Origin: an uncultured Flammeovirgaceae bacterium
Lineage (GTDB): Bacteria > Bacteroidota > Bacteroidia > Cytophagales > Cyclobacteriaceae
Reading direction: 5' to 3'
DNA length: 64,000 nt
Assembly (NCBI GenBank): GCA_937883755.1
Contig: CAKZYA010000061.1
Coordinates: forward strand, 248,001 to 312,000
Shown here: positions 4,139 through 58,077 of the stretch, piece after piece
How the letters are laid out: the number at the start of each line of letters is the position of its first letter
How positions within the stretch are numbered: position 1 is the first letter of the stretch
Position numbers and translations under genes: made by a program
The notes under the pieces: model-generated
Database searches by the model: none
Seen by the model: only the letters and a program-made list of their open reading frames with translations
What the model was told of the DNA's origin: nothing

Positions 4139-4172
4139 TGACCAAAATCATCGGTGCCGGTAATCTGGATCA
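4139..4172. promoter_or_regulatory. Phased box pair TGACCAAAATCA / TAATCTGGATCA
   Basis: Boxes at 4139-4150 (exact) and 4161-4172 (one mismatch) are 22 bp apart, between the divergent DsrE-like gene (71 bp away) and the Hsp20 gene (69 bp away). The near-symmetrical placement suggests that one box serves each promoter. Confidence 0.65.
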
Positions 4173-4241
4173 TCGGTCAATAATGAGTAGGTGTTTATTT
4201 TCGCTATTGTAGATTAATGTTCAACCTTAACGAATAGTATC

Positions 4242-4676
4242 ATGACCCAATTAATGAAACCTTCCGGATTGCTAAGTAACATCCCTTCGTTACTGTCTGA
4301 CTTTTTTGACGATGACCGGTTTAGCTTCGACACTAGTTGGCTAGCCAGAGTGCCAGCGGCCAATGTAAAGGAAAAAGATGATGCTTTTTATATTGATTTA
4401 GCCATTCCCGGCATGAAAAAGGAAGATTTTCACGTCAATGTGGACAATCACACGTTAATGATTAGCTCTGAGAAGAAAGAAGAGAGTAAGGAAGAAAAAG
4501 ACGAATATACCCGTCAGGAATTTAGCTATCGCTCGTTCAAACGTTCTTTTGCTCTGCCTGAATCAGTGAAGGCAAATGAGATTCAAGCCAAGTACGAAGA
4601 CGGAGTGTTGAAACTAACAATCCCTAAGAAAGAGGAAGTCAAGCAAGCTCCTCGGAAAGAGATTGCCATCAATTAG
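4242..4676 (+). CDS. Small heat-shock protein, Hsp20/alpha-crystallin family
   Basis: The 144-residue protein has a short variable N-terminus and an alpha-crystallin domain from about residue 35 to 130, including AIPGMKKEDF and the conserved YEDGVLKLTIPK strand. It ends in a short basic tail. Hsp20 proteins are ATP-independent cytoplasmic holdases that bind unfolding proteins. The next gene (triple BON) follows within about 40 bp, so they are likely co-transcribed. A second Hsp20 of identical length lies at 8009-8443. Confidence 0.95.
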   Translation: MTQLMKPSGLLSNIPSLLSDFFDDDRFSFDTSWLARVPAANVKEKDDAFYIDLAIPGMKKEDFHVNVDNHTLMISSEKKEESKEEKDEYTRQEFSYRSFKRSFALPESVKANEIQAKYEDGVLKLTIPKKEEVKQAPRKEIAIN

Positions 4677-4714
4677 TGTTAGGTTACTTTTATTTACCCC
4701 ATAATTTTTTAGTC

Positions 4715-5377
4715 ATGAAAACGATAAATGATGCTTCATTACAGGAAGATGTAATGGATGAAATAGAATGGCGTACCTCACTCAAGCCTGCTGAGATTGG
4801 CGTAAGCGTGAAAGACGGGGTTGTCACTTTGTCAGGTTCAGTGGATTCCTATAGCAAGAAACGATCAGCTGAATTAGCGGCCGAGAAAGTAGTAGGGGTT
4901 AAGGCGATTGTAGACGATATCGAGGTGAAGTTGCCAGGTACTAGTATTCGGGATGATGAAGCTATTGCCCGAGCTGCTTACGATGCTTTACTTTGGCACG
5001 CGAGCCTTCCGGACGAAAAAATAAAGATTATCGTTGACGATGGATGGATCAAGTTGGAAGGAGAAGTAGAATGGAGCTTTCAGAAGCGCAAGGCGGAAGA
5101 GTCAGTGGAGAACCTGACCGGAGTCTATGGGGTAGTGAATGCCATCAAAGTAAAGCCGCAAGTAAGTGTGGAAGATATTAATCGCCGAATCCAGAGTGCA
5201 TTGGCTCGTCAGGCCTCGTTAGACGCTAAGAATATCCACGTAGATGTAGATGGAAGCAAGGTGATTCTAACCGGAAAAGTTCGATCGTATGTGGAGAAAA
5301 AAGACGCTGAGAATGCAGTATGGATTGCCCCCGGAGTTACCGCTATCGATGACCAATTAGAAATCTCTTACACCTAG
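4715..5377 (+). CDS. Triple BON-domain protein
   Basis: I chose the ATG at 4715, which begins MKTINDASLQ; upstream codons overlap the Hsp20 stop and look non-conserved. The 220-residue product is three tandem BON repeats of about 70 residues, each with a GxV-x-DG(V/W)-x-L-x-G-x-V core. BON domains (as in OsmY and secretins) bind phospholipid or peptidoglycan surfaces in known cases. No signal peptide is visible, so the location is uncertain. Its pairing with Hsp20 supports a stress role. Confidence 0.9.
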   Translation: MKTINDASLQEDVMDEIEWRTSLKPAEIGVSVKDGVVTLSGSVDSYSKKRSAELAAEKVVGVKAIVDDIEVKLPGTSIRDDEAIARAAYDALLWHASLPDEKIKIIVDDGWIKLEGEVEWSFQKRKAEESVENLTGVYGVVNAIKVKPQVSVEDINRRIQSALARQASLDAKNIHVDVDGSKVILTGKVRSYVEKKDAENAVWIAPGVTAIDDQLEISYT

Positions 5378-5716: not shown

Positions 5717-7771
5717 CTACAATGAAGTAGCTAATTTTGTGCCTTCTAATATCGCTTTTTGAATGGAAGGAGTGCCATTTCCCGCAGCATCGCCGACACG
5801 ATAAATACCGTCAACCACTCCCGTTAGCTCTTTCATCAGGCTATCATTAGCGTGGTACTGACTCATGACCATTACATTATCAGCTTTGATCTCTTCAGCA
5901 TGGCCTTCCGGGGTTACAAATGCAACGCCATGATCCAAAATTTTAAGGAACCTTACCCCCACGTAGCTTCGCACTCCTTTAGCTTCCAGCCAAGGTAATA
6001 GGCGAACCAGCCAGGCTAGGGGCATACCAGCCCCAAGTTGGGCGTCCGTACTTACCAGAGTAACGCTTCTTCCTCGCTTCACCAGGAACTCGGCTGCTTC
6101 CAGGGCAGTATAATCACTTCCAACAACCACTACTGATTTTCCAACAGGAAGAAATATTTTGGTAAGATTTGACATGGCGCGGGAGCCAATAAAGTGTAAG
6201 TATCTTCCTGCTTGCTTTTTCAGATCTTCGGTACTTATGACAACATCCTTATCAACCCCTTCTACATTGGGAAGACTAGCTTTACCCCCAGTAGCCAGAA
6301 TTACTACGTCTGGTTCATGAATTTTCACAAGTTCACGATCAACTTCTTTTCCTAAGTGGATGGGAATGTTGAGCCTGTGGAGCTCCTTTTGGTAGTAGCG
6401 AATAGCTTTCAACAGGTTATCGGCTAACCCAACTCCTTTAATAAAAGCTGCCATGGGCAGCAGTCCGCCTAAGTCAGATGAGCGATCATATACTTCTACG
6501 TGATGTCCCCGTAACGCTAAGATACGGGCTGCTTCTAAACCGGATGGCCCAGCACCAACGATCAAAATAGATTTAGGGTTGCTCACAGGTTGGATGGGCA
6601 TCTCACCTTCTCTTCCGAGAAAGGGGTTCATCCGACACTCTACCGGCTTGGCTAGCAAAATATTGCTCAGACATACATTGCAGCGTAAGCACTCTCGAAT
6701 CGTTGCGGGGTTTTCGCCCTTCAACTTGTTGGGGAAGTTCGGATCCACTAGTAGGGGACGACCAAAGCATACTAAATCTACCTGGTCTTTGGCAATGACT
6801 TTATTGGCTAACTCTGGCTCCAAATAGCCTACCCCGGAGACTGGGATACTCACCTGATTACGGATGAATTCGGCATCTTCTATCAGTGCTCCTTTCGGAA
6901 TGGCTTCGTAAAACTCCTTGACAGAAGGCGTTACTTCAGGATAACCAATAAGGTCGGGCAGAGCGCATAACGCGTACTCTCCGTAGCCGTAAGCAGAAAC
7001 CTGGAGATAATCGGCTCCGACGTCTTCAAACATTTTTGCAAAAGTTGCGGCTTCTTTGGGTGTGGTTCCAAGTTCGTGCCCCCGTTCTTGTCCGTTCATC
7101 CGTACCCCTAACACAAAGTTATTCCCACAAAGCTCTCGGGTGCGTTGTAAGATTTCTGTTGAAAAACGGGCGCGATTTTCTAGAGAAAGGCAACCGTAAT
7201 TGTCTTCGCGTTTGTTTTGAACTCGGGAAAGAAAAGCATTAACCAATGCGTAATGCGCCATATGTACCTCAACACCGTCAAATCCCGCTTTCTTTACCCG
7301 TAAGGCGGCTTGGGCAAATTTTTCTATCAGTGCTTCAATTTCATCTATCGTCAGCTCATTGGAAACCGAAAACGGCGGCTCGACCGGAGGATCTAATCGG
7401 GAAGGAGCTACGGGTGTTGATCCGTCAAATGGGGCGTGAGCCGGGCCGGCATGAGTAATTTGCACAATAGCCGGGGCGTGATACTGATGAATTGCTGAGG
7501 CCAGCCGTTGCAAGCCATCAATGAACCGGTCTTCATCCAGCCGTAAATGACCTTTCTGGCTGGCACCGAGCGGGTAATCGCACACGCTTTCTTCCACGGT
7601 AATTAAGCCTACTCCCCCCGCAGCTAAACGTTCGTAGAATTCAATCAGTCGATCCGTGACTTCACCATCGAGACTGGCGTACACTGTCCACTGGGCTGCC
7701 TTTACAATACGGTTCGGTAAATCTAAATGCTTTAGTTTAAACGGGCTAAGTAGGTGCGAATAGTCGTTCAT
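5717..7771 (-). CDS. NADH:flavin oxidoreductase / 2,4-dienoyl-CoA reductase-like (OYE + FeS + FAD/NAD)
   Basis: I used the ATG at 7771 (MNDYSHLL), because the longer frame reaches into the promoter copy discussed below. The 684-residue protein has an Old-Yellow-Enzyme TIM barrel over about residues 1-340. A 4Fe-4S motif CLRCNVC plus a later ECRMNP cysteine follows, then an FAD-binding VGAGPSGLEAA site and a second nucleotide site in which GSDYTA replaces the usual GxGxxG. This is the FadH/trimethylamine-dehydrogenase layout. Such enzymes reduce enoates or enals with NAD(P)H in the cytoplasm; the substrate is unknown. The gene appears monocistronic under a box shared in sequence with the downstream-located Hsp20 promoter. 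Confidence 0.9.
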   Translation of the reverse strand: MNDYSHLLSPFKLKHLDLPNRIVKAAQWTVYASLDGEVTDRLIEFYERLAAGGVGLITVEESVCDYPLGASQKGHLRLDEDRFIDGLQRLASAIHQYHAPAIVQITHAGPAHAPFDGSTPVAPSRLDPPVEPPFSVSNELTIDEIEALIEKFAQAALRVKKAGFDGVEVHMAHYALVNAFLSRVQNKREDNYGCLSLENRARFSTEILQRTRELCGNNFVLGVRMNGQERGHELGTTPKEAATFAKMFEDVGADYLQVSAYGYGEYALCALPDLIGYPEVTPSVKEFYEAIPKGALIEDAEFIRNQVSIPVSGVGYLEPELANKVIAKDQVDLVCFGRPLLVDPNFPNKLKGENPATIRECLRCNVCLSNILLAKPVECRMNPFLGREGEMPIQPVSNPKSILIVGAGPSGLEAARILALRGHHVEVYDRSSDLGGLLPMAAFIKGVGLADNLLKAIRYYQKELHRLNIPIHLGKEVDRELVKIHEPDVVILATGGKASLPNVEGVDKDVVISTEDLKKQAGRYLHFIGSRAMSNLTKIFLPVGKSVVVVGSDYTALEAAEFLVKRGRSVTLVSTDAQLGAGMPLAWLVRLLPWLEAKGVRSYVGVRFLKILDHGVAFVTPEGHAEEIKADNVMVMSQYHANDSLMKELTGVVDGIYRVGDAAGNGTPSIQKAILEGTKLATSL

Positions 7772-7821
7772 AGGAAGTGATATTTTCTTTCTAAGAAGCA
7801 ACCTTTACTGTTCCTAAGCAA

Positions 7822-7855
7822 TGACATCAATCAGCGTAAAGCATGATGATTAATC
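7822..7855 (-). promoter_or_regulatory. Box TGACATCAATCA with half-site at +22
   Basis: An exact box at 7822-7833 lies 50 bp upstream of the oxidoreductase start. A clean TGAT half-site begins 22 bp further on, at 7844, but its right half does not match. The surrounding 48 bp (7800-7847) match 8486-8533 at 41 positions. Confidence 0.6.
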
Positions 7856-8008
7856 GTGCTGAGTAGGTACGCCACGGATGGAAAGAGTACTTAATATTAT
7901 TCGCTTCTATATCATCTCATACGAACCCCGAACAGTTTGTAATAGGAAAGTTCAGGTATTCACTAAATAAAGTACTGTCTTGTAATCTACTCAATGATTT
8001 CCTGTGGT

Positions 8009-8443
8009 CTAATGTACAGCAATGGTATTGGACGGGACTTGGGATGAATAGGAAAGTCGTATGGATAAAACGCCATTATTGAATTTAGCTTTAATATTTT
8101 GGCCATCAATGTTGGGGGTAAGTTTGAAGGTACGTTTCAATAGTTGAGTGAAAAACTCGCGGCGTATCACACCATCCGTATCTTCTTCGCGCTCTTTTTT
8201 TGCTTCAATAATTAGGGTGTCGTCGTGTATGGTCAACGTAATCTCATCGCGGGAAAAGCCCGGCAATGCTACCTCTATGTCAAAATATCGGTCGGTCTCC
8301 CGCAGGTTGACTAAAGGTTTCTTGGTAGGGGCTATCCACGAATCATCGAAAGGCCCCCGCCCCAAAAAGCGTTCGGGGTCAATAAAGTGATTTATTCGGT
8401 CACCGATACGATGTAGTCCGCTGTGTAAGATATGAGGTCGCAT
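8009..8443 (-). CDS. Small heat-shock protein, Hsp20 family (second copy)
   Basis: I chose the ATG at 8443 (MRPHILHSG); the longer frame runs into the conserved promoter block. The 144-residue protein has an alpha-crystallin domain with VALPGFSRDEI and the terminal strand NNGVLSIRL. It is a distant paralogue of the 4242 gene rather than a recent duplicate. A holdase role in the cytoplasm follows from the family. It appears monocistronic under a box pair. Confidence 0.95.
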   Translation of the reverse strand: MRPHILHSGLHRIGDRINHFIDPERFLGRGPFDDSWIAPTKKPLVNLRETDRYFDIEVALPGFSRDEITLTIHDDTLIIEAKKEREEDTDGVIRREFFTQLLKRTFKLTPNIDGQNIKAKFNNGVLSIRLSYSSQVPSNTIAVH

Positions 8444-8841
8444 GGTTTTCTTTTTAAGATGGGTATTCTTTATCAGCAAAGGAACAATCTTTACTACTCC
8501 CAAGCAATGACATCAATCAGTCTAGAGCATGATAACTATCTATTTCAGATGGTGGGCCACTGTTTCATTTGTAATGGGTCATATTTATGCGATCTACTAC
8601 TTCCTGGTTGATTACAATTTGACAAAAATTGTATCCTTACATTCATATTTGATAGTAGTTTTTTTTGATAAACTTTTTTAAATAGTTTTACATGCATGTT
8701 GTAGAGGTCTTTGCTTGTTATTTATGGTAACTGACAATCTGTTGCTTTTGCAACATTTAGTTTCTTTCTTTTCAAAAAGATTTTTTAAACAACTTCATTA
8801 GTAAACGAGTAAGCATAATAAACATTAAAACCAGTTGTGTT
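8444..8841. other. AT-rich intergenic region between divergent Hsp20 and propeller gene
   Basis: The region holds the box pair at 8508-8541 and a small GTTGC/GCAAC palindrome at 8741-8754. The rest is AT-rich leader sequence. A 50-codon frame at 8529-8681 overlaps the box and I do not call it. Confidence 0.6.
8508..8541 (-). promoter_or_regulatory. Phased box pair TGACATCAATCA / TGATAACTATCT
   Basis: An exact box at 8508-8519 is followed exactly 22 bp on by a box with one mismatch at 8530-8541. The proximal box is 64 bp upstream of the Hsp20 start. Confidence 0.65.
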
Positions 8842-9765: not shown

Positions 9766-9960
9766 ATACAATCCAAAGAATGCCTCCCATCAAACCATTT
9801 CCTACCAGTTATGGAGAGCATAAAAATCATGGGAGATTTTGGTGATGCTTTCCTATGAGCTAAACTTAGATATACCATTTAACAATTGAGTTTGAAGAAA
9901 CATCACTGCAAAAATTACTCGTAAAATTTTTGTGCCCCACGGTTTTTCTATGATCTTTTT

Positions 9961-11236: not shown

Positions 11237-11302
11237 GATATTGGGATTTTAAATGATTGATAACTGAATGAGAAAGGTATCCATAGAAATAGAGTGAAGC
11301 GA

Positions 11303-11336
11303 TGATTCGGATTAGCCCTTCCGATGATCTACGTCA
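11303..11336. promoter_or_regulatory. Phased box pair TGATTCGGATTA / TGATCTACGTCA
   Basis: Boxes at 11303-11314 (one mismatch) and 11325-11336 (exact) are 22 bp apart. They lie 66 bp from the dodecin start and 58 bp from the flavoprotein start. TACTTTA at 11360-11366 resembles a Bacteroidota -7 element and would put the right box near -40. Confidence 0.65.
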
Positions 11337-11394
11337 GTGCTTTGATAAGGCTAACAATATACTTTAAGCACTACGAACAATAATCAAGACAGTT

Positions 11395-12933
11395 ATGGGT
11401 GATTTTCGACCTTCAGTGATTATTATTGGCTCCGGAATGGCGGGTCTTTCAGCGGGTTGCTATGCTCAGATGAACGGATTCACTAGCCGAATTTTTGAAC
11501 AAAACGAGTATTCGGGCGGAGTATGTACCTCCTGGCAGAAAGATAGGTACACGGTCAACGGGTGCATTCACTGGCTGGTAGGTTCTAGTCCAACTAATAG
11601 CTTTCATCAAGTCTGGCAAGAACTCGGTGCTATCGACGGGCAATCCTTCATGGATCACGATCGGTTTTTTACGTTTGAGAGTAAATCGGGTCAGACTCTT
11701 ACGCTATTTACTGACGTAGATTGTCTGGAACAACACTTGTTGGAAATTGCCCCTGAAGATACCAAAGAGATTCAAAATCTTATTCAGGCAATTCAGTCGA
11801 TTGCCCGCTGTGATTATAGCCCTACTTTGCACGAAGGCTTTCAGGCCTGGCTGGAAAATATCCGTAAGGCATTTACGCACCTCCCTCTTTTCCGAGTGAT
11901 CATGAAATGGGGATTAGTAAGTATCCGTGACTACGCCGACCGTCTGAGAAGCCCAGTATTAAAAGAAGCTTTGCTACACTTCTGGCATCCTGAGATGTCC
12001 ATGATTATTTTGTTGATGACTCTAGCGTTTGCCCATCGTCGTACAGCAGGTTACCCCTTAGGCGGTTCAAGTACATGGATTCAGCGGATTGCTGATCGCT
12101 ACAGCGACTTAGGGGGAAGCCTACATCTAAATAGCCGGGTCAGTAAAATTCTGGTGAAAGAACAGGAAAACGAAGCCTACGGCATTCGCCTAGCGAGCGG
12201 TGAGGAGTATTACGCGGAGTATATCATATCGGCGGCCGATGCTCACCATACAATTTACCAAATACTCGAGGGGAATTATCAGGACGAAAGGATAACTGCT
12301 CCTTTTGAGCAATTAAAACTCTTCCCCCCGATCTTATTTGTTTCTTTTGGAGTGAATTGCCCATTTGAAGATGTTCCGGCTAGTGTAGTGGGATTAAGTT
12401 TTCCTTTGGAACAAGTTATCTCGGTGGGTGAGGAATCAGTAGATCGGCTGACGTTCCAGATTTACAATTTTGATCCCGAGCTAGCTCCCGCCGGGAAAAC
12501 GGTACTCACCTGCATGGTGGGTACGGAGTACGATTATTGGTATGATTTATACCAGCACCCAGCAGCCTATCAGGCAAAAAAGGAAGAAATACTTAATCAG
12601 ATGATACGAGCACTAGAACAACGTTTTCCTAGTATTTCTGGACAGATTGAGATGAAGGATTTAGCAACACCCATGACCTACTATCGCTACAGTAGTAACT
12701 TCCGGGCGAGCTACGAAGGTTGGCTACCGACCCCGCGGGCGCTACGAACCAAAATTAAACATACCTTACCGGGTCTAAGTCGTTTCTACCAAATCGGACA
12801 CTGGACCGAACCGGGAGGGGGATTACCACCTTCCGCTTTGTCGGGCCGGAAAGTCATTCAAAAGATATGCCACCGGGAGAGATTATCTTTTCAAACATCA
12901 AAGCCTCACGATAAGGAAGCCCTCGTTATTTAA
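11395..12933 (+). CDS. Phytoene-desaturase/RetSat-like FAD oxidoreductase
   Basis: The 512-residue protein opens with a dinucleotide-binding GSGMAGLSAG (residues 12-21) and the NEYSGG follow-on motif. It has a family C-terminus with EPGGGLPPSALSGR. This is the carotenoid desaturase/isomerase and retinol-saturase-like family, which uses FAD to oxidise or isomerise polyenes. No other carotenoid gene is nearby, so the substrate is open. A second, longer relative is encoded at 36936-38771. Expression probably depends on the box at 11325. Confidence 0.85.
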   Translation: MGDFRPSVIIIGSGMAGLSAGCYAQMNGFTSRIFEQNEYSGGVCTSWQKDRYTVNGCIHWLVGSSPTNSFHQVWQELGAIDGQSFMDHDRFFTFESKSGQTLTLFTDVDCLEQHLLEIAPEDTKEIQNLIQAIQSIARCDYSPTLHEGFQAWLENIRKAFTHLPLFRVIMKWGLVSIRDYADRLRSPVLKEALLHFWHPEMSMIILLMTLAFAHRRTAGYPLGGSSTWIQRIADRYSDLGGSLHLNSRVSKILVKEQENEAYGIRLASGEEYYAEYIISAADAHHTIYQILEGNYQDERITAPFEQLKLFPPILFVSFGVNCPFEDVPASVVGLSFPLEQVISVGEESVDRLTFQIYNFDPELAPAGKTVLTCMVGTEYDYWYDLYQHPAAYQAKKEEILNQMIRALEQRFPSISGQIEMKDLATPMTYYRYSSNFRASYEGWLPTPRALRTKIKHTLPGLSRFYQIGHWTEPGGGLPPSALSGRKVIQKICHRERLSFQTSKPHDKEALVI

Positions 12934-21931: not shown

Positions 21932-22441
21932 TTAGATAAACTCACCAGTTTCGTCTACTTTTACCCGCATACGCTTATCGCCATTTTCCAATACGAGTTT
22001 GTATTGCTTTTTAGCTTCTCCGCTTCTTTGATGGAATGTTACCCGGTAGATGTCTTTCGAGATACTCCAGTTGGGAAACCGCTCGGCGATAGATTGCTTG
22101 ATGGCCTGTGGCACATTCACGTTCTTAAAGCGTTCGGCGGTACGTAGCAAGGTGCCATCTCCGTCGTAAGAAGCAAGAATTTTGCCTTCAGGAATGTAAA
22201 AGGACACGAAATAAGTACTGTACTCATCCTCGTAAAAGTCGGCGCTTTTCACGTCGTAGTCAGCGACAGCGTTTTCTAATTCCCGGACGGGAATAGAGGC
22301 TTCTTCACCCAGCGAATTGAGGTACTTGTAATTGGTCGCAACAATTTCGATTTCCGGTAATTCTACTACCTGAGCGAGAGAGGGAAGAGTGGCTCCAAGA
22401 ATGAGTATACTAGCACTTAATAACAATAATGATCGTTTCAT
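21932..22441 (-). CDS. Exported PepSY-like protein
   Basis: The 169-residue protein has a signal peptide ending near LPSLAQ. It has a PepSY-like / BLIP-type repeat pattern: VPQAIKQSIAERFPNWSI, then IYRVTFHQ and QYKLVLENGDKRMRVKVDETGEF. Such Bacteroidota proteins are periplasmic or secreted, with unknown ligands. The nearest box of the upstream pair is 76 bp away, so it is likely a member of the regulon. Confidence 0.75.
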   Translation of the reverse strand: MKRSLLLLSASILILGATLPSLAQVVELPEIEIVATNYKYLNSLGEEASIPVRELENAVADYDVKSADFYEDEYSTYFVSFYIPEGKILASYDGDGTLLRTAERFKNVNVPQAIKQSIAERFPNWSISKDIYRVTFHQRSGEAKKQYKLVLENGDKRMRVKVDETGEFI

Positions 22442-22517: not shown

Positions 22518-22551
22518 CGATTTAGGTCATCGGATACGATGATCGAGATCA
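22518..22551. promoter_or_regulatory. Phased box pair CGATTTAGGTCA / TGATCGAGATCA
   Basis: Boxes at 22518-22529 (one mismatch) and 22540-22551 (exact, within the longer near-palindrome CGATGATCGAGATCATCG) are 22 bp apart. They are 76 bp upstream of the PepSY-like gene; the divergent DUF1080 gene is 173 bp away. Confidence 0.7.
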
Positions 22552-31894: not shown

Positions 31895-31964
31895 GGTGCT
31901 AATTGCTTAAGGAGATATTAGATCAATTGGATGATAAGGTAGGCCGCCCCTGCCAGGGTAGCAA

Positions 31965-31998
31965 TAACTTGGGTCACTAATAAGAATGACCTAGATCA
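31965..31998. promoter_or_regulatory. Phased box pair TAACTTGGGTCA / TGACCTAGATCA
   Basis: Boxes at 31965-31976 (one mismatch) and 31987-31998 (exact) are 22 bp apart, 70 bp from the acetate-CoA ligase start and 75 bp from the haem lipoprotein start. Confidence 0.7.
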
Positions 31999-32073
31999 TT
32001 TTCATATTGAAAATTGATTCTTTGCTTGCAAAATGTAGGGGTTTATGAAATCTTGAAACAGACGATCAATCAC

Positions 32074-34115: not shown

Positions 34116-34228
34116 CGCTCCTTGTTTGAAAGATACTCCTCTAAAAAGGCGAAGTACGGCACCAGGATGTTCTTTTCCTATGATGTAGATCACTGAAGTT
34201 TGCCAAAGATGAAAGTTGTAATCGCTAC

Positions 34229-38968: not shown

Positions 38969-39020
38969 GATAACTAAAGCTTAATTGGCTCAAGCTACTG
39001 CCTCTTACACTATATTTCAA

Positions 39021-39054
39021 TGCACTAGGTCATGCTGAAGGATGATCTGAATCA
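39021..39054. promoter_or_regulatory. Box TGATCTGAATCA with weaker partner TGCACTAGGTCA at -22
   Basis: The exact box at 39043-39054 is 59 bp upstream of the DUF6567 gene. A partner matching 6 of 8 positions begins exactly 22 bp left, towards the 24-aa ORF. TACTTTG at 39079-39085 resembles a -7 element and would place the exact box near -41. Confidence 0.6.
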
Positions 39055-39113
39055 TCGGTCGAGCCAGAAGTATTTCGCTACTTTGCAGTCACTCTAAAAA
39101 ATACGGAATACCC

Positions 39114-43780: not shown

Positions 43781-44073
43781 AGTTATTATGGTTTAAATGA
43801 ATAAAAAATGATCAACTTGTCTCAGGTGACTCATAATGGAAGTGAAGAAGGGAGTTAGTGTTACCCCTCCTGATGTGTATAAAAAGTAAAATTAAACCTC
43901 TATGGGCAACCTCTCAGCTTTCCAAGCTAGACACTGCAATTCATTCCACAGAGACTTTAGTATGAAGGTACCTATTTTGTCACTTTCATGCGATGAGGTT
44001 TATTACCGTAGCTGATGATCTAGATCACTGCATTTATTAAAAAGTATTTGTGAAGCTTCTCAGAAAATGATTG
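43781..44073. other. Intergenic with box upstream of a tiny gene
   Basis: The region between the T9SS gene start and the 26-aa ORF holds the box pair at 43994-44027. No gene is seen in the 236 bp between the box and the T9SS start. Confidence 0.5.
43994..44027. promoter_or_regulatory. Box TGATCTAGATCA with weaker partner TGAGGTTTATTA at -22
   Basis: A perfectly palindromic box at 44016-44027 lies 46 bp before the ATG of the 26-aa ORF. A partner matching 6 of 8 positions begins exactly 22 bp upstream. Confidence 0.65.
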
Positions 44074-44200: not shown

Positions 44201-47200
44201 CTAGCGTTTCACTAAGCGTATGTCTGATCGAGGATATCCGTTATGGGCTACCTTCAGAACATACATGCCGGGCAGGAAACGATCCATCGGAATAGCAATC
44301 TCAGATTGCGGTATGGGTAATGAATACTGATGATTATATACCGGAAATCCTAGATGATCGTACAACCGCACTTCCAAAACACCTGTGGTAAACTCTTCAC
44401 TCAATTCTAAAGTGACTGAAGAAATGACTGGGTTTGGGTAAATCTTCAGCGAATCCTGAGCAGGTAGAATAGCTTCCGCTATGGCGATATTTTCCAGGCT
44501 AGCAGCAGGAGAAGTAAAGGCAGGAGAGTTATATCCTAAACTGGCCAAAAAGAAACCATCTTGTTCGATGTCATCAAAAGTTGCCCCCACACCGAAGGCA
44601 GCCCGTCCGGTAAGGCGGAGCTGATCTTCAGCTAACACACTGATATCAACTGGGGCATCACTTCCCGTCCCTCCGGCAGTTTTTATCCAACGTAACGCTC
44701 CCTTTGAGTCAAATTTACTGACAATAATATCTTCTTTACCCTTTGAGGTTAGCATTACCGCACCTACTTGTGTCTGATCGGTAAAAGTTGCCGTCACGTA
44801 GCTATTGCCCGCTGCATCGGTAACTAAACTTGGAGCTGTGGTTGACCCTTCAAACCATTGTTTTGCCCAACTGATGCTTTCACTGGTTGCATCTTTCATT
44901 AATTTAGCGACAAATAACCCGGTATTCAGCGGGGTTTGGGCTAGTTCACCCATTCCTTCCCAGGATCCAGTTACATAAATACTTCCTTGGTCGTCATGAT
45001 CAATATCGAAGATTTCAACTCTTTGATCATTATCAATGATATGGGTCTTTATGAGCGACCCTGAAGCATCAAACTGAATGATGAAGCTATCAAAATCATT
45101 CCCAGTAGCTGTGGAGTATGTGTCTCCGCCTATCGTAATCGTACCCCGTAAGGTGCCTGCTAAATAATTATTTCCATTGGTGTCAGCCGTAGCAGCATTT
45201 ATCTCAGCAACATCATTACTAGAAAAGCTTTTTGCCCATAACGCAGTGCCATCGGAGTCAAATTGCACCTGAAAACGATTGCCCGTATCAAGGGTAAAGT
45301 CGCCGAACCGGATAAATGAACCATTAAAACTACCACTGAGATACAGGCGATCTTGATGGTCAATTGCTAGAGCTGATCCTGAAGCGAAAGTTCTAGAAAG
45401 TCCATTACTTTCTCCTAACCGAAACCACATTAATGAACCTTCAGTGTCGAATTTGGCAATAAATGCATCTTCTTCCCAAAACTGGGATGTGAAACATGAA
45501 TCTCCAAAACAAATAAAATCAAAGGAGCCAGCCAAGTAGAGATGACCTTGGCTATCGGTTACAGCATCTACGATGGAAACTATTCCCGATGAAAAGCCTC
45601 TACTCCACAGCCTGCTTCCCAGTGCATCATACTTGGCGATAGTCGCAAAATCAGTAAGACTTTCAACGGTATAGCTATTTCCCTGAACATCTGTAGCGAG
45701 TACTCGCGTGCTAGCCGCATCATCGAGATCTTCACTCACCCACTGCCAGTCAGGAGCCGATGACAGCAGTGGCGAATCAATACCCGCTTTATAATTCTGT
45801 AGCACCTGGGCGGGAGAAAGTGCTTGGTTATAAACCGCCACTAAGTGGTAATCTCCTAGCCAAGGGCGTTCGCCACCAATTTCGTTCGCTAGTGCAAAAT
45901 GATAATCACTTCGCCAGGAAGAAAAATCGCCTGACCGGGTACCCCTTACTCCACCCAGACCATTGACGTAGAGCCTTTCGGAGCCGTCCGCAGCGTGAGT
46001 GAATACAATATGTTGCAACTGCGAGTAGTCATCAAGAATTTCGTCAATATCGGCGGATAGGCTAGGAATTCCGTTCTCATTATTCTCAGTGGTGTTGAGG
46101 CGGGCAATGTAAGTAAAAGCATCCCCACTTCCCGGTTCCTGACCGAGGGTAAACGCTCGTTGACTGGTATTACGTGACAGCGTCGCTATTCTGGCGGGGC
46201 CACCAAGCTCAGGATCAGAAGTTTTAATCCAGGCTTCTATAGTCACCTCATTTGTTTGCTTACAGGCTTGAATCAACTTCTTAGCCCGTTTGTTAGATTC
46301 AATCATGGTGGGTTGGTCAATACGCAATACGCCATTCCCTAACCAGGTAACTGCCGACTCATCGCCAATGGTAAGGTTCAAGGGAGTACCTACGCCAGAA
46401 ACATCTTTAATCACTTTTCCCGAACCTTCTTGGAAGGTGTATAGTACCTGTAAACTCTCGGTTACCCGCTTTGGTAACGGGGGCTCTTGGGAGAGCATCG
46501 CCACAAAAGGGCCACTAGCGGGTGCAGATCGCCCATCATCAAGAGGTATGGTTCTTGCAAATCCACTAATGCGTAGGTTGTTATCGCCAATAACCTCAAT
46601 AGCATTCACTTTGGTGAACCAGGCAAACCGTAAGGCACTCAATTGCTTGGTCCAAATTGATTTTCCGTCTATATCCAGCTTAGAGATAATTGCGTCTACA
46701 TCCTCCGGATTATTAAATATCAGACCTTCATCTAGACTATTGAATACCACATTGCCTACGGCAGCGATACCTTGGAAGTTGTACGCGACATACAGATGAT
46801 CGTTCTGAAACGTTAATGCTCCGTCACGCTCGCCCCTAGTGAAATATTGATAAGTAAATGGATGAACCCAGGTCGGTTCCCCTTGACTGTTGTATTTGAC
46901 CAAGAAGTCACGGGAGTTAAGATTGATACCTAAAAGCGACCCTCCTCCTTCTGCATAGTCCGATAGAATATAAAGATTATCTTGCTTATCAACGGCTAGA
47001 TCATGAATCCGAAGAGCTCCATCATTCTCGATTTCTTCGGCCCACATCAGTCCCCCTCCTGAATTGTATTTCGCCAGAAAACCGTCTTGTTCAGACGTAT
47101 TTTCTCGAGTGGAAAATGAAATACCACCAAAGCGCACATTTCCCTGAAATGCTCCTGTGATGTATATGTTCTGGGTTGCCCCTACCTGTAATCCGTCGAG

Positions 47201-48664
47201 TGCATGGGTAAAGTAATTATCTTCACTAAAATTACCCCCTGCCTGCGCCCAAAGTACTTCACCGGTCGAATTGTACTTAGCCAAAAACATATTACCTGAC
47301 TGCTGAGATACAGCGGTGCCATCTAGTGTAATATCTGACCCTCGGAAAAAGCCATTGACATAGACATGCCCATCTTTATCTAGGGCAATTTTATCACCTC
47401 GGGCATTTAACTCGAAGTTGCTCAGTGATCCCTCTAGCTTTCCATCTTGAAACCAGAGTAAACCTCCCTCTTCATCAAACTTTGCTAGGAAAAAAGTATA
47501 GTTAGTTGAAGAAAAATTTTGACCATCTAGCAAAATATCATCGTAGTAGCCAGTTAAATAAATATGGTTTTGGGAATCAATAGCCACATCAGAAACATGA
47601 AATAATACATCCTGGGTGACACCCTCTGCTCCCAGTTGCTTAGCCCATAGCAGGTGACCATATGTGTCATACTTAGCCAGAAAATAGATATTATCGAATT
47701 CACCTACTGTTTCTCGATACTCAAAGTAACCCGAAACATAGGTATTTCCTGATTCATCGGTAGCTAAATCAAAATCAGCCAATTCGTACCCGTACCAATC
47801 CAGTTCAAAATCAAATTCTTCAATTTTAGTGGCCCACTGAAAATCTGGGGCACGCTGTACTAATTCCGAACCTAGCGAAGCAGCTTGGTAGTTTTGTTGT
47901 ACTTGCTGAGGAGAAATAGCCTGATCATAGATGGCAGCCATGTAATATGTACCTAACCAGGGACGGTCTCCTCCTACTTCATTAGCTAGTCCCAACTGGT
48001 AGTCATTACGCCAACTACTGGTAGTTCCCATCCGGGTTTGGCTTGCTACCTCTTGACCATCTATGTAAATCTTCTCAGTACCATCGGCGGCGTGAGTAAA
48101 TACCACATGCTGTATCTGCAACTCTTCATATGGTTCTTGGATAGTGAATGCGGGAGCACCATAGGAATTATTCCCGCTAGTATTAAACCGAGTAAGATAT
48201 TCATAATTACTCGTATTGCTAGTCTGACCTAGCAATGCTGCGCTTTCGGTACGGGTTTGCGACAGCGTTATAATTCGGGCTGGGCCGTTTTGATTTATTG
48301 TAGCAGGCCGTATCCAAGCCTCAAGTGTTATTTCATCGGTGGCTTGGCAAGCCTCAATGAGTTTAGTAGCCGGAGAGCTAGTATGTACAAAGGTAGGTTG
48401 AGTGATTTCTAATCCACCCCCTCGAACCCAACGTACTCGACCTACGTTGGCAATGTCCAAGTTAAGCGGTTCACCAACGCCTGACACGTCTGATACAACA
48501 GAACCTTCCCCTTCCTGAAAGAAATAAAGGGCTTGTATTCCTTCGGTAATCCGCTCAACAGGAGTATTGGCTGCAGGCTGAGCAGATCCAGAAGATATGA
48601 AACAAAGAACGAGGGCTACCAAGTTGAGTCCAAAGCTTGTAAAAAAGTCGCATAGAGGCTTCAT
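44201..48664 (-). CDS. Giant secreted T9SS protein with duplicated LamG + propeller modules
   Basis: The 1487-residue protein has a signal peptide (ISSGSAQ). Two copies of a LamG/concanavalin-like domain follow (ALYFFQEGEGSVVSDVSGVG ... EAWIRPATINQNGPARI ... HVVFTHAADGTEKIYIDGQ; second copy near residues 735-960). After each comes a set of SBBP/NHL-like propeller repeats (DESGNTYVSGYF, SQNHIYLTGYY, KYNSTGEVLWAQ). The C-terminus is a T9SS sorting domain (IYPNPVISSVTLEL, GMYVLKVAHNG). Likely surface-attached, perhaps glycan-binding through LamG. A box pair lies 98 bp upstream. Confidence 0.92.
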   Translation of the reverse strand: MKPLCDFFTSFGLNLVALVLCFISSGSAQPAANTPVERITEGIQALYFFQEGEGSVVSDVSGVGEPLNLDIANVGRVRWVRGGGLEITQPTFVHTSSPATKLIEACQATDEITLEAWIRPATINQNGPARIITLSQTRTESAALLGQTSNTSNYEYLTRFNTSGNNSYGAPAFTIQEPYEELQIQHVVFTHAADGTEKIYIDGQEVASQTRMGTTSSWRNDYQLGLANEVGGDRPWLGTYYMAAIYDQAISPQQVQQNYQAASLGSELVQRAPDFQWATKIEEFDFELDWYGYELADFDLATDESGNTYVSGYFEYRETVGEFDNIYFLAKYDTYGHLLWAKQLGAEGVTQDVLFHVSDVAIDSQNHIYLTGYYDDILLDGQNFSSTNYTFFLAKFDEEGGLLWFQDGKLEGSLSNFELNARGDKIALDKDGHVYVNGFFRGSDITLDGTAVSQQSGNMFLAKYNSTGEVLWAQAGGNFSEDNYFTHALDGLQVGATQNIYITGAFQGNVRFGGISFSTRENTSEQDGFLAKYNSGGGLMWAEEIENDGALRIHDLAVDKQDNLYILSDYAEGGGSLLGINLNSRDFLVKYNSQGEPTWVHPFTYQYFTRGERDGALTFQNDHLYVAYNFQGIAAVGNVVFNSLDEGLIFNNPEDVDAIISKLDIDGKSIWTKQLSALRFAWFTKVNAIEVIGDNNLRISGFARTIPLDDGRSAPASGPFVAMLSQEPPLPKRVTESLQVLYTFQEGSGKVIKDVSGVGTPLNLTIGDESAVTWLGNGVLRIDQPTMIESNKRAKKLIQACKQTNEVTIEAWIKTSDPELGGPARIATLSRNTSQRAFTLGQEPGSGDAFTYIARLNTTENNENGIPSLSADIDEILDDYSQLQHIVFTHAADGSERLYVNGLGGVRGTRSGDFSSWRSDYHFALANEIGGERPWLGDYHLVAVYNQALSPAQVLQNYKAGIDSPLLSSAPDWQWVSEDLDDAASTRVLATDVQGNSYTVESLTDFATIAKYDALGSRLWSRGFSSGIVSIVDAVTDSQGHLYLAGSFDFICFGDSCFTSQFWEEDAFIAKFDTEGSLMWFRLGESNGLSRTFASGSALAIDHQDRLYLSGSFNGSFIRFGDFTLDTGNRFQVQFDSDGTALWAKSFSSNDVAEINAATADTNGNNYLAGTLRGTITIGGDTYSTATGNDFDSFIIQFDASGSLIKTHIIDNDQRVEIFDIDHDDQGSIYVTGSWEGMGELAQTPLNTGLFVAKLMKDATSESISWAKQWFEGSTTAPSLVTDAAGNSYVTATFTDQTQVGAVMLTSKGKEDIIVSKFDSKGALRWIKTAGGTGSDAPVDISVLAEDQLRLTGRAAFGVGATFDDIEQDGFFLASLGYNSPAFTSPAASLENIAIAEAILPAQDSLKIYPNPVISSVTLELSEEFTTGVLEVRLYDHLGFPVYNHQYSLPIPQSEIAIPMDRFLPGMYVLKVAHNGYPRSDIRLVKR

Positions 48665-48762
48665 AAAACAATAAGCTAAAAGTGAAACATAATATGTTTT
48701 GATCGGGATATTTATGATAAATATCTATTTTTGAAAATAGTCAAATGGAAAATTGATCAAAA

Positions 48763-48796
48763 TGATTTAGATCATCGCCTTATATAACTTGGAACA
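48763..48796 (-). promoter_or_regulatory. Box TGATTTAGATCA with weaker partner TAACTTGGAACA at +22
   Basis: The exact box at 48763-48774 is 98 bp upstream of the giant T9SS gene. The partner at 48785-48796 matches 6 of 8 positions, exactly 22 bp away, and closely resembles the 31965 box. Confidence 0.6.
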
Positions 48797-49933: not shown

Positions 49934-49936
49934 GAG

Positions 49937-50209: not shown

Positions 50210-50681
50210 GCTGCGATCTTAATCGAGAAAAAAACAAGAAGCAATGATCTATGTCATCGGTAGAATCTGTTTTAGCAATTATCTTTGATTATATCAAGTG
50301 AGAGATAAAAGGCAGGCTAATCACGGCCAGGCCGAGTAAACTTTTTTCTTGGAAACTGTTTCTCCGAAAGGAGAGCAGGGGAAAGGAACAGAGGTTTGTT
50401 CGGTCAGAAGGGGAACAACGATTTATTGTAGTGCAACCGGAAGTCATAATAACAGTAGCTTGGCGGATCATAGTTTTTACGGAAATTGTGAGCCGGAGCG
50501 GGTATCTACGTAAGTAGGTGCCCGTTTACAGTTCATACTGTTCCAATACATCCATATCTTGCCAAATATATCGCCTAAATCGGAAGAGCCCCCCGGTTAT
50601 CAGCTATTTTTAATACTTCTAAACTAATGATAGACCCAGCTATTTCGATAGACTTTTCATATCTTTCATGAGTCAACGACC
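50210..50681. other. Intergenic between divergent units
   Basis: The 472-bp region holds the box at 50245-50256 near its left end. A 60-codon minus-strand frame (50289-50471) has a hydrophobic end but no supporting start or spacing. I see no box near the metal-efflux side. Confidence 0.5.
50245..50256 (-). promoter_or_regulatory. Box TGATCTATGTCA
   Basis: An exact match, 35 bp upstream of the zinc-ribbon/L,D-transpeptidase operon, closer than the usual 45-100 bp. No partner at 22 bp. Confidence 0.55.
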
Positions 50682-55518: not shown

Positions 55519-55524
55519 AACAAC

Positions 55525-56661
55525 ATGAGCTTACGAATCTTCATAATACTACTAGTAGGAATAACAGCCTGCCAGCCACCAAACTCACCCTCGGACGAGG
55601 AAGGAAAAGTCCCTACAGATACCGAGAGCATTGCATCGGTCTCATTAGTTCCAGCTCAGCTACAGACTGCTGACATACGTCTGGGAACACTGCAAAAGCA
55701 ACGTATGAGCGAAGCTATTGAGGCTAGAGGGTTCCTAGATGCCCCTCCTCAGCATAGGGCTGTTGTATCACCTATCATGGCAGGCTATGTAAAAACCACC
55801 TCACTACTGGTAGGCGACCAAGTAAAAAAAGGCCAGACATTAGCCGTGCTCAGCCACCCCGATTATGTAGCCTTGCAGCAACAGTATTTGGAAGAGCTAA
55901 AGCGCTTGGACTACCTAAAGTCAGCGTATGAGCGGCAGTTGGCCTTAGGCGAGGATCAGATCAATGCGAAGAAGAACCTGATTAAAGCTACCTCGGACTA
56001 TGAAGCCGCTCAGGCCAGGATGGAAGGGTTGCGGCAGCGATTAAGTATGTTGGGTTTGCCCCCTAAAAAAATTGAGCAAGGTGCAATTACTTCCGAAATT
56101 CGCCTGGTCTCGCCCCTAAGTGGTTACATTACCCGGGTGAATAGCACCATCGGGAAACTGGTGCTACCTGGTGAAGAGCTGTTTGAGATCGTAAACTTAG
56201 ACCATCTTCACGTAGAAATGCGAGTATTCGAGAAAGACCTGCCTCAAATACGTATCGGGCAGCCATTTTCGTTTACTTTGACGGGCTCAAGTCAGCGTTA
56301 TTCAGGTAAGGTATATTTGATAGGCAAATCACTATCCCATGAAGACCGAACGGTACAAGTGCACGGGCATCCGGATGAGAATCATTCATTTTTTTTACCA
56401 GGGATGTATGTAAACGCCACCATCTACACCGGATCAGATTCGGTATGGGTGTTGCCCGAACAAGCCGTAGTATCGGCCAATCAGCAAGCATTTACATTTG
56501 TTAAACGATCAAAAGGTCAATTTGCCAAAGTTCTCGTTCAGATGGGAAGAGTGTCTCAGGGTTGGATAGAAGTCACTCCCAGTGAAGAGTTAGGCCCCCA
56601 AGACAGTGTGGTGATTGCTGGGACGTACTACCTATCCGCCGCCTCAGAACGGGAAGATTAG
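55525..56661 (+). CDS. czcB: RND periplasmic adaptor lipoprotein (CzcB-like)
   Basis: The 378-residue protein has a lipobox (GITACQ), a biotinyl-lipoyl-like half (VVSPIMAGYVKTTSLLVGDQVKKGQ) and an alpha-hairpin. It continues with the second half (LSGYITRVNSTIGKLVLPGEELFEIVNLDHL) and beta-barrel/membrane-proximal domains. It bridges pump and channel. It begins 6 bp after the CzcC-like stop, so A-C-B is one operon. Confidence 0.92.
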   Translation: MSLRIFIILLVGITACQPPNSPSDEEGKVPTDTESIASVSLVPAQLQTADIRLGTLQKQRMSEAIEARGFLDAPPQHRAVVSPIMAGYVKTTSLLVGDQVKKGQTLAVLSHPDYVALQQQYLEELKRLDYLKSAYERQLALGEDQINAKKNLIKATSDYEAAQARMEGLRQRLSMLGLPPKKIEQGAITSEIRLVSPLSGYITRVNSTIGKLVLPGEELFEIVNLDHLHVEMRVFEKDLPQIRIGQPFSFTLTGSSQRYSGKVYLIGKSLSHEDRTVQVHGHPDENHSFFLPGMYVNATIYTGSDSVWVLPEQAVVSANQQAFTFVKRSKGQFAKVLVQMGRVSQGWIEVTPSEELGPQDSVVIAGTYYLSAASERED

Positions 56662-56795
56662 TATTTTAAACTAGCCACTCGTTATCCTAACCAGGAGTGA
56701 TTTTCTGAAGTAGATTTGTGTTCGTAACTAAAGTGCCACAAAGCCGGTAAATGACTAGGAAATAGTAGGAGGTATAAAATATCCGATGCTAAATA

Positions 56796-57881
56796 TTAAG
56801 CGCAATTAACAGCAAAGAACTTGACTTTTTTCTGTTTACCTCTCAGCGGTATGTCGTTAATAAATTCAAATTCGTACCCGTTAGTAGAGATAATTTTCTT
56901 GGTAAGGTGTTCGGTAACCAATAAAGACTTTTCGTATTCGTTACACTTTTTTTCAAGCCGAGAAGCGGTGTTTAGTACGTCGCCGTGAAAGGCAATCTCC
57001 CGCTTCAGATCCCCAATCTCCGTTACGGTAACTTCACCGGTATCCATGCCAGCTTTAAATTCGGGGTATATTCCGTATTTTTTCTCAAAGTATCCCATAC
57101 GCTGATCTAGTCTTTTTTTAAAGGTGAAGAAAGTGTTTAAACAATTCAGTTGGTCAAGCCCGACCTTGGTTTTCCAGTGAAGGACAATTTCATCTCCTAC
57201 ATATTGATAAACCCTTGCTTGGTTGTTGAGGAGGATGGGCGTGAGCTGATGAACACAATCTTTAATAAATTCACTGTATTTTTCGTGGCCCAGCTTTTCG
57301 GCGATTGTCGTAGAGCCTTTGAGATCAAGAAAAAGAAAAATCAAATGCTCTCTACGCGGATGGTAGTACTTTCCCTTTATTAAATCTATCAAGACACCCG
57401 GACCAAATTTTTTATTAATCTGAATGATGAAGTTCATTAACAAAATAAAAAAGAGAAAATAGACAGCCAGAGAAGCAGTGTAGGTGAGATTAGCCATTTC
57501 ATGCCAATAATACTCAAATTGTTCTGGGGTAATAAGTTTTAGTCTCGCGAAGATTTGAAAGACAATTACTCCGCAGATAATCAGAGAAGCCGAGTAAAGA
57601 ATACTCTTGATTAAAATGTTAAACCCAAAAGATCTTTCTCTAAACCAGGGATAGTTGGTAAGATAATTAACTACTGAAAACAGCGTCCCGAAAATGAATC
57701 CGGTTAGTACCACTTCCAGGTAAAAGAAATATGAATTGAGATACTCAATAAAAGGGTTTTGGACGATATAGTCTCTTAACCCCCAAAAGGTAAGAAAAGT
57801 ATAAAAGTAGATAATAAATATCCAGGCGATAACGATCCAAAGCCAATTTTCCAAGACAGCTTTTCTATTAGCCATTTTCAA
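56796..57881 (-). CDS. Membrane-bound class III nucleotidyl cyclase
   Basis: The 361-residue protein has four to five N-terminal spans (to about residue 165) and a class III adenylate/guanylate cyclase domain. Metal-binding Asp residues lie in FLDLKGST (about 184) and YVGDEIVLHW (about 228). The transition-state segment is LNTASRLE. Such enzymes make cAMP (or cGMP). No cyclic-nucleotide receptor is encoded nearby, but the window is rich in Crp/Fnr-like boxes. The next box pair is 162 bp from its start, so control by it is uncertain. Confidence 0.9.
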   Translation of the reverse strand: MKMANRKAVLENWLWIVIAWIFIIYFYTFLTFWGLRDYIVQNPFIEYLNSYFFYLEVVLTGFIFGTLFSVVNYLTNYPWFRERSFGFNILIKSILYSASLIICGVIVFQIFARLKLITPEQFEYYWHEMANLTYTASLAVYFLFFILLMNFIIQINKKFGPGVLIDLIKGKYYHPRREHLIFLFLDLKGSTTIAEKLGHEKYSEFIKDCVHQLTPILLNNQARVYQYVGDEIVLHWKTKVGLDQLNCLNTFFTFKKRLDQRMGYFEKKYGIYPEFKAGMDTGEVTVTEIGDLKREIAFHGDVLNTASRLEKKCNEYEKSLLVTEHLTKKIISTNGYEFEFINDIPLRGKQKKVKFFAVNCA

Positions 57882-58043
57882 TCTTGATTTTCTACCTTAA
57901 GATAAAAATTTGCGCGCAGACTCACCACTCTCTTGTGATTCTGTTAATGAAGAGACAAATTTTCGGCTAGAGTAATACGATTATTGCGGTTAGAGATAGA
58001 ATATTTCGTGCGGCAATGTCAATTTTCTACTTTGAATAACCAA

Positions 58044-58077
58044 TGATCAAGCTCATTCCGGACGGTGATGCGTATCA
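58044..58077. promoter_or_regulatory. Phased box pair TGATCAAGCTCA / TGATGCGTATCA
   Basis: Boxes at 58044-58055 (one mismatch) and 58066-58077 (exact) are 22 bp apart; the latter is 67 bp upstream of the envelope operon. Confidence 0.65.

Follow-up and report, generated by a model that had tools for sequence, protein, structure and literature searches.

A stretch of 64,000 nucleotides from the genome of an uncultured Flammeovirgaceae bacterium (7.6 Mb in 75 contigs) carries pairs of short inverted repeats, TGA-N6-TCA, whose members start exactly 22 bp apart. This stretch, hereafter the window, spans positions 248001-312000 of contig CAKZYA010000061.1 (C61). The same spacing forms a sharp peak elsewhere in this genome and in relatives, the pairs lie almost exclusively between genes, and many stand at a fixed distance from a promoter element. 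These features indicate that adjacent dimers of Crp/Fnr-superfamily proteins probably co-activate class II promoters in a low-oxygen and stress response, with a protein named P0001 as the candidate activator in the window.

Boxes are paired at a single spacing

The box pattern TGAYNNNNRTCA has eight fixed positions, over which mismatches were counted. A pattern scan of the window yields 26 exact boxes; if one mismatch is allowed, the number is 136. In six places an exact box and a partner with at most one mismatch lie at a distance of exactly 22 bp (4139/4161, 8508/8530, 11303/11325, 22518/22540, 31965/31987 and 58044/58066). Weaker partners occur at the same distance at 39021 and 43994 (two mismatches each), at 48785 beside the box at 48763 (two), and at 7844, a half-site beside the box at 7822 (three). 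The original prediction, made from the window alone, had listed these pairs, weaker partners and half-site, and all of them were recovered.

Fewer than 0.1 one-mismatch partners had been expected by chance at this spacing, an estimate of the right order. The real density of boxes gives 26 x 2 x 136 / 64000, or ~0.11, and the other spacings from 12 to 80 in the real window hold 0.16 partners each, with a maximum of 2 (Poisson P ~2e-8 for six at 22). In 200 first-order Markov simulations of the window the mean at spacing 22 was 0.015, and the maximum at any spacing from 12 to 60 in any run was 2. Because the simulations hold a mean of only 4.1 exact boxes versus 26 in the real window, its other spacings are the fairer control. 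When exact/exact pairs are counted twice, the next spacings after 22 in the window are 48, with three, and 9 and 52, with two each. An exact/exact pair at spacing 48 is located at 34181/34229.

The distribution of distances between motif matches, proposed earlier as the test of a 22-bp phasing, peaks sharply at this value both in stretches of the genome outside the window and in relatives. Outside the window, 20 stretches of the same genome (379,357 bases, 14 stretches from the same contig) hold 7 pairs at 22 compared with 0.32 per other spacing. Genome-wide, 16 places have a pair at spacing 22 with at most one mismatch, versus 3 with a reversed-pattern control. Ten of these places lie in C61 at 195-306 kb and three in contig C50 at 73-86 kb, while the remaining three (on C33, C59 and C60) are about as many as the reversed control predicts. 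A search for exact pairs with gaps of 2-30 gave four places in this genome; the two with spacing 22 are both in C50. Sharp as it is, the peak stems chiefly from two gene clusters, which hold 13 of the 16 pairs, and a regulator with sites throughout the genome was rejected on this ground.

Among sampled congeners, three of three have exact pairs at 22, and 18 stretches around regulator homologs and pairs in relatives (their islands) hold 35 pairs at 22 versus 0.57 per other spacing. A further set, the named loci, consists of the best 80 of more than 564 loci from a scan with a Crp/Fnr protein alignment. These loci, each up to 20.7 kb and together 1,405,477 bases, sample Crp/Fnr gene neighborhoods by design. 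Many come from Cytophagales (for example a Catalimonadaceae, Roseivirga, Marivirga, Belliella and Hymenobacter), others from bins labeled Flavobacteriales, Balneolales, Ignavibacteria, Calditrichota and Bifidobacterium, the last label being probably wrong. The data sets overlap slightly, contigs L137, L139 and L204 being the same as L100, L096 and L105. With at most one mismatch, the named loci contain 76 pairs at 22 versus 1.43 per other spacing, and 49 of the 80 have such a pair. Exact/exact pairs number 50 at spacing 22, 3 at 23, 1 at 21 and 8 over all other spacings from 4 to 80. Small excesses were also seen in these loci at spacing 70 (5 versus the mean of 1.43) and at 48 (5, at most one mismatch); 70 equals 48 + 22.

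Exact pairs at 22 are present at 84 places in 39 of 118 genomes of the order, with 2 places for the reversed control. Contig matches, such as that of G003:C62 with L137, point to Cytophagales as this order. A phylum-wide draw of genomes gave 44 places versus 0 for this control; 15 of 29 members of the class have an exact pair, as do 3 of 89 phylum genomes outside the class, which is near the estimated chance level of ~1. The density of exact pairs is ~36 per Mb near Crp/Fnr genes versus roughly 0.2 per Mb order-wide, assuming ~4.5 Mb per genome. One genome from another family of the same class, G236, carries 13 exact pairs at 22 on its contigs C14, C43, C44, C46, C57 and C58, of which six fall in C43:81-108 kb.

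An operator of E. coli CRP measures 22 bp, and two Crp-type operators at this spacing therefore abut. The original prediction had pointed to two helical turns, which would place two dimers on the same face of the DNA. Dimer-type dyad boxes do lie side by side at a fixed distance, but phasing is not the whole explanation. A distance of 22 bp corresponds to 2.1 helical turns, spacings of 21 and 23 are rare, and spacings of 12, 32, 33, 43 and 44, which fall on about the same helix face, are not enriched. Helical phasing alone was rejected as the cause because these other in-phase spacings lack enrichment. Three exact boxes in a row, at 22 + 22, occur in two genomes (G116:C275:8213-8268 and G147:C2:2518584-2518639).

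Pairs stand in fixed register to a promoter element

After pairs with an identical 44-bp stretch had been dropped, 121 non-redundant pairs remained. At a mean coding density of 90%, 117 of these are intergenic, 47 of them between divergent genes. Genes were taken as the longest non-overlapping open reading frames (ORFs), uncurated, and the four pairs flagged as coding include that at 4139 in the window. Register was read in gene direction from the 66 intergenic pairs that face a single gene; the 47 divergent pairs and 4 others were left out.

Measured from where box 1, the upstream box, begins, the sequence TAnnTT starts at offset 57 in 33 of the 66 pairs, at offset 58 in 7, and at any other offset in at most 6. 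TTTG stands at offset 61 in 38 of these pairs and is not enriched among them at the place of a -33 element. According to PMC6847099, the -7 element of Flavobacterium johnsoniae runs from T-12 to G-5, and G is nearly absent at -10 and -9. G occurs at these two positions in 7% and 0% of the paired promoters, as in the F. johnsoniae element. Because that element spans T-12 to G-5, box 2 is predicted to be centered at -41.5 and box 1 at -63.5, relative to putative start sites. The -7 register would thus place the downstream box at the predicted position of a class II activator. Offsets 14-17, within the spacer, are rich in T, and box 1 is preceded by A's (57-62% A at -5 to -3).

Most exact boxes in the -63.5 register (45 of 56) are accompanied at -41.5 by a partner with at most one mismatch, and 54 of 56 have one within three mismatches. 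The corresponding counts for exact boxes in the -41.5 register, with partners at -63.5, are 39 and 49 of 64. At each other distance from 14 to 40, partners found in this way number 0 or 1. Unpaired intergenic boxes have a -7 element at +35 in 6 cases versus 0.40 per offset in the own genome (39 boxes) and in 19 versus 1.16 per offset in other loci (87 boxes), and single class II boxes therefore exist too. Boxes inside genes have this element in 0 of 50 cases in the own genome and in 3 of 141 in other loci. Within the window, the -7 element has one mismatch at 4139, 8508 and 11303 and two at 31965, 39021, 43994, 48763 and 58044, and it is absent at 22518 and 7822.

Genes downstream of the pairs

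Downstream genes were taken within 400 bp as closed ORFs of 40-900 amino acids, on both sides for 7 ambiguous divergent pairs. Among the resulting 110 genes are 75 Pfam families, led by Usp (19), COX1 (10), FixO (10), CcoI-type ATPase (7), cNMP-binding (6) and DUF4136 (6), with Hsp20 (5), HTH_Crp (3), FixH (2), radical SAM (2) and Rieske (2) less frequent. Genes in the window and nearby in C61 include hsp20 (twice) and genes of DsrE, BON, nitroreductase-like, phosphoribosyltransferase, glycogen debranching, Usp, phosphoenolpyruvate (PEP)-dikinase-type, cation-ATPase and efflux kinds. Judged by the kinds of genes downstream (usp, ccoNO, ccoI, fixH, hsp20, crp/fnr), the paired boxes look like markers of a low-oxygen and stress regulon.

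Two candidate regulators and two box dialects

TGA-N6-TCA is the core of Crp/Fnr sites, and the boxes are inverted repeats of this form, so at the sequence level they qualify as candidate Crp/Fnr binding sites. The FNR box, TTGAT-N4-ATCAA, has T before TGA, and the CRP half-site, TGTGA, has G. Here T precedes TGA in 6% of own island boxes, 13% of those in Fnr-type loci and 23% in all P0001-type islands, and G does so in 11% of own island boxes and 5% in Fnr-type loci. With T in only 6-23% and G in 5-11%, the boxes are neither FNR boxes nor CRP boxes in the strict sense.

Crp/Fnr genes are present in both clusters of pairs in the own genome. The gene for P0001 (C61:202933-203619) lies ~44 kb outside the window in a row with genes for a NarL-type response regulator, a PAS histidine kinase and a short protein resembling a cyclic-nucleotide (cNMP) domain. 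P0001 has an N-terminal cNMP-binding domain (PF00027, 3.9e-23) and a C-terminal Crp-type helix-turn-helix domain (PF13545, 4.9e-16), and its best PDB relatives are Crp/Fnr proteins; by domain content it is a member of the Crp/Fnr superfamily. It is not an FNR in the strict sense, since the N-terminal iron-sulfur cysteines are lacking: its sole Cys is residue 132, and C-x2-C is found in 0 of 5 P0001-type protein rows. A second protein, P0002, is encoded in C50 divergently from a CcoI-type ATPase gene, with an exact pair between the two. P0002 and 11 of 11 Fnr-type rows have an N-terminal C-x2-C, with the third Cys off the E. coli spacing. The residue before the conserved Glu of the recognition helix, which is the place of CRP Arg180, is K in 5 of 5 P0001-type rows and T (9), S (1) or Q (1) in the 11 Fnr-type rows.

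Loci were divided by hand into P0001-type and Fnr-type from protein identities, and their boxes differ in dialect. Half-sites in C61 read C(A/G)ATGA(T/C)CT, and 0 of 9 spacers there contain an A/T tract of four; at Fnr-type loci the flanks are rich in A, and 47 of 71 spacers contain the tract. Because of gene adjacency and dialect we assign the window boxes to P0001 as their likely cognate protein. The C50 cluster, which encodes cbb3-type respiration, would use the same geometry with the Fnr-like P0002. The gene row leading to the P0001 ortholog is preceded by an exact pair in two relatives (G012 and G019).

Genes for the histidine kinase, the NarL-type response regulator and the Crp/Fnr protein that lacks N-terminal cysteines form a conserved row at L014:2088-6880 (C61:202088-206880) and in orthologous loci. 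The short cNMP-domain-like protein is encoded near this row in the own genome, G012 and G019 and has weak matches to P0001 (E 1e-8 to 4e-6). Five loci from several sampled genomes (L031, L066, L070, L072 and L075) encode Crp/Fnr proteins of ~350-365 amino acids whose first residues resemble a receiver domain, making them putative receiver-Crp fusions.

Proposed mechanism and alternative explanations

Each box is the predicted site of one dimer of a Crp/Fnr-superfamily activator, and a pair would represent two 22-bp operators laid end to end, with P0001 and P0002 as the presumed binders. The downstream dimer at -41.5 would cover the place of the Bacteroidota -33 element and serve as the class II activator. 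The upstream dimer would abut it at -63.5, where the C-terminal domain of the RNA polymerase alpha subunit (alpha-CTD) would otherwise dock, and could strengthen binding and contact alpha. The two dimers may bind cooperatively through a rigid protein contact, and would together bring RNA polymerase to a promoter in which a -7 element, TAHHTTTG, stands without a separate -33 element. The regulon would constitute a low-oxygen and stress response, with activation as the presumed direction of regulation and oxygen or redox state as the presumed signal. The exact pair spacing and fixed promoter distance in relatives suggest a shared mode of activation by two dimers.

Several observations limit the pairing itself or weigh against this proposal. 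At spacing 22, a partner with at most one mismatch accompanies only 6 of the 26 exact window boxes. The proportion is 5 of 14 among those flagged as intergenic, the sixth paired box, 4139, being flagged as coding only since the ORF rule preferred a longer plus-strand ORF (3661-4212). A good -7 element accompanies just three of the six window pairs, even as the best of four shifts and two strands, and 22518 has none. In the sequence searched, 31 of the 80 named loci lack a one-mismatch pair at 22, and six sampled members of the order (G027, G030, G032, G033, G035 and G038) have a good regulator homolog without an exact pair. The promoter of the P0001 gene row has only a single box in the own genome (L014:6969). 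Adjacency and dialect are the two lines of evidence that join the C61 boxes to P0001, from 10 pairs of which 9 entered the dialect count, and the dialect is blurred across all P0001-type islands, where 12 of 46 spacers have the A/T tract. The dialect is therefore sharpest in the own genome, with 0 of 9 in C61.

The explanation that the pairs arose by chance, or that one promoter was copied around, has a negligible probability. The flanks of 7822 and 8508 are alike, so some copying has occurred, but the spacing peak appears in four data sets and the 110 downstream genes include 75 Pfam families. Chance was rejected because the distance distribution is peaked and the reversed-pattern controls are low (3 versus 16, 2 versus 84 and 0 versus 44). 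It is also quite improbable that the NarL/GerE-type response regulator encoded beside P0001 binds the boxes and that the Crp/Fnr proteins are bystanders. The kinase-regulator-Crp neighborhood is conserved, with response-regulator homologs of 47-72% identity beside P0001 orthologs in L100 (= L137), L101, L138, L092, L096 (= L139), L140, L141, L144 and L102. However, tblastn (E up to 1e-12) found no homolog in 42 of the 46 named loci that have a non-redundant intergenic pair, although absence is uncertain in cut contigs. The figure becomes 43 of 49 paired loci when copies are counted, the pairs of L137 and L139, two loci that do hold a homolog, having been dropped before as copies, and this absence from most paired loci makes the response regulator an unlikely binder. 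Moreover, the TGA-N6-TCA core is that of Crp/Fnr sites. The usual FNR position is about -41.5 according to PMC3688515.

Two further alternatives accept Crp/Fnr dimers on both boxes but assign the upstream one a different role. Each dimer might contact RNA polymerase on its own, as class II activator at -41.5 and class I activator at -63.5, so that polymerase geometry sets the spacing. Both boxes are fixed relative to the -7 element, and polymerase alone could consequently set the distance between them. Yet class I sites usually tolerate whole-turn shifts, and spacings of 32, 33, 43 and 44 are not enriched; in addition, the third box of the triple arrangements in G116 and G147 could hardly be set by the same polymerase contact. 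We regard such independent action as unlikely, though it is the least improbable of the alternatives. Less probable still is that the upstream box is a repressing or tuning site, whose dimer would block docking of the alpha-CTD and damp expression at high activator level. In E. coli, -63.5 overlaps the place where this domain docks upstream of a class II activator. Against such a role, a box 1 in register usually comes with a good box 2 (45 of 56), and the A-rich stretch upstream of box 1 could itself serve the alpha-CTD.

Features of the window

Strands are in parentheses; a dot marks pairs with no single strand assigned.
4139-4172 (.): pair at spacing 22; 4139-4150 exact, 4161-4172 one mismatch
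4196-4203 (+): -7-like TATTTTCG of the 4139 pair in the expected register, towards hsp20 (4242-4676)
4107-4114 (-): -7-like TACTATTG of the 4139 pair, one base off register, towards a DsrE-family gene
7822-7855 (-): 7822 exact, half-site partner 7844 (three mismatches); register lacks a -7-like element; upstream of ATG ORF 5717-7771, an NADH:flavin oxidoreductase-like gene
8508-8541 (-): pair; 8508-8519 exact, 8530-8541 one mismatch; -7-like TTCCTTTG at 8477-8484; upstream of the second hsp20 (ATG ORF 8009-8443)
11303-11336 (.): pair; 11303 one mismatch, 11325 exact; -7-like TACCTTTC at 11272-11279 (-)
11360-11367 (+): weaker -7-like TACTTTAA of the 11303 pair, on the side of a flavin amine oxidase gene (11395-12933)
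22518-22551 (.): pair; 22518 one mismatch, 22540 exact; in the gap separating gene 21932-22441 (-) from the divergent gene 22725-23483 (+); neither strand has a -7-like element in register (three mismatches each)
31965-31998 (.): pair; 31965 one mismatch, 31987 exact; weak -7-like TACCTTAT at 31934-31941 (-); between an AMP-binding-enzyme gene (30161-31894, -) and a Tll0287-like gene (32014-32697, +)
39021-39054 (.): weaker pair; 39021 two mismatches, 39043 exact; weak CTACTTTG at 39078-39085 (+, in register) and weak TAGCTTGA at 38990-38997 (-)
43994-44027 (-): weaker pair; 43994 two mismatches, 44016 exact (TGATCTAGATCA); weak TACCTTCA at 43963-43970 in register
48763-48796 (-): weaker pair; 48763 exact, 48785 two mismatches; weak TATTTTCA at 48732-48739 in register; upstream of gene 44201-48664 (-)
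50245-50256 (+): unpaired exact box; perfect TATCTTTG at +35, a single box at predicted -41.5
58044-58077 (.): pair; 58044 one mismatch, 58066 exact; weak -7-like CAAATTGG at 58101-58108; flanked by a class III nucleotide cyclase-domain gene (56796-57881, -) and, on the other side, by LolA-like, MacB/FtsX-type and ABC-ATPase genes in a row (58130-62188, +)

Because -7-like elements stand on both sides (4107-4203), the 4139 pair may drive two divergent promoters. Four divergent intergenic pairs have a -7-like element with at most one mismatch on both strands. The regions 7808-7860 and 8494-8546, upstream of the flavin oxidoreductase gene and the second hsp20, are near-identical around the first box (aagcaaTGACATCAATCAg...agcaTGAT); the promoter was apparently copied, and the second box is different at 7844. 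The class III adenylate/guanylate cyclase-domain gene at 56796-57881, divergent to the 58044 pair, may provide a cyclic-nucleotide link to a Crp-type regulator.

Relation to known systems

Class II activation by Crp/Fnr proteins is textbook knowledge, and tandem Crp sites are known at single promoters. The arrangement described here resembles class II promoters of E. coli FNR and CRP in its nearby Crp/Fnr genes, its TGA-N6-TCA core, the predicted position of box 2 at -41.5 and its cbb3 oxidase targets. FNR sites lie mostly at about -41.5, with very few known at -61.5 or beyond, according to PMC3688515. In contrast to E. coli class II promoters, a second operator abuts at -63.5 in many promoters here (39 of 64 in-register boxes), the base before TGA is mostly neither T nor G, and a Bacteroidota -7 element replaces the -10 element. 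Tandem CRP or FNR sites occur in class III promoters and at whiB1 of Mycobacterium tuberculosis, where two sites are reportedly ~21 bp apart. These likewise place two Crp-type sites upstream of one promoter but are found at single promoters or at various spacings; here the same exact spacing is repeated across a regulon and in many genomes of a class.

In Burkholderia, the large low-oxygen-activated (lxa) island brings together genes for usp, hsp20, PEP synthase/dikinase-like, nitroreductase and cation ATPase proteins, and the C61 island resembles it in these kinds of genes, although in a different phylum. Other Crp-family regulators of Bacteroidota are MalR/Cur of Bacteroides and HcpR. CrpPg of Porphyromonas gingivalis (PMC12040651) belongs to the same superfamily and phylum as the pair-associated Crp/Fnr proteins. 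In PMC8510549, homologs from its Ignavibacteria, Flavobacteriales and Saprospiraceae bins are taken as MalR-like. Neither of these two papers contains the terms tandem, spacing or palindrom.

The redox regulator ArcA binds as adjacent dimers on direct repeats with 11- or 22-bp spacing, and one extra base went with lost protection of a third repeat, as reported in PMC3798270. On that account it is alike in being a redox regulator with adjacent dimers and a 22-bp repeat spacing. It differs as an OmpR/PhoB-type response regulator on direct repeats of varying number; here there are two inverted-repeat operators and Crp/Fnr proteins.

A fixed 22-bp tandem arrangement of Crp/Fnr sites was not found in searches of an open-access library that lacks most subscription journals. 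The original prediction had known of no described Bacteroidota regulator with such an architecture. The searches agree with this as regards the arrangement, but the kind of box is a known one, given its Crp/Fnr core, the Crp/Fnr genes in both clusters and the promoter register. The protein family is known, and one exact tandem spacing across a regulon and a bacterial class is what was not found described.

If the proposal is correct, many members of a large bacterial class would read low oxygen or stress through one rigid promoter layout visible in raw sequence. This layout, an abutting pair of Crp/Fnr operators in fixed register to a -7 element, would allow such regulons to be predicted in uncultured Bacteroidota, and the question would arise of how dimers of this superfamily function with a sigma factor and a promoter unlike those of E. 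coli. A more specific idea, which we offer tentatively and consider possible though somewhat doubtful, is that Bacteroidia use dimer-of-dimers activation, in which the dimers at -41.5 and -63.5 would act on the divergent sigma-ABfr polymerase as a single unit and the upstream one would occupy the seat of the alpha-CTD. Such a mode would be neither class I, class II nor class III of E. coli, and would be common to two paralogs with different dialects.

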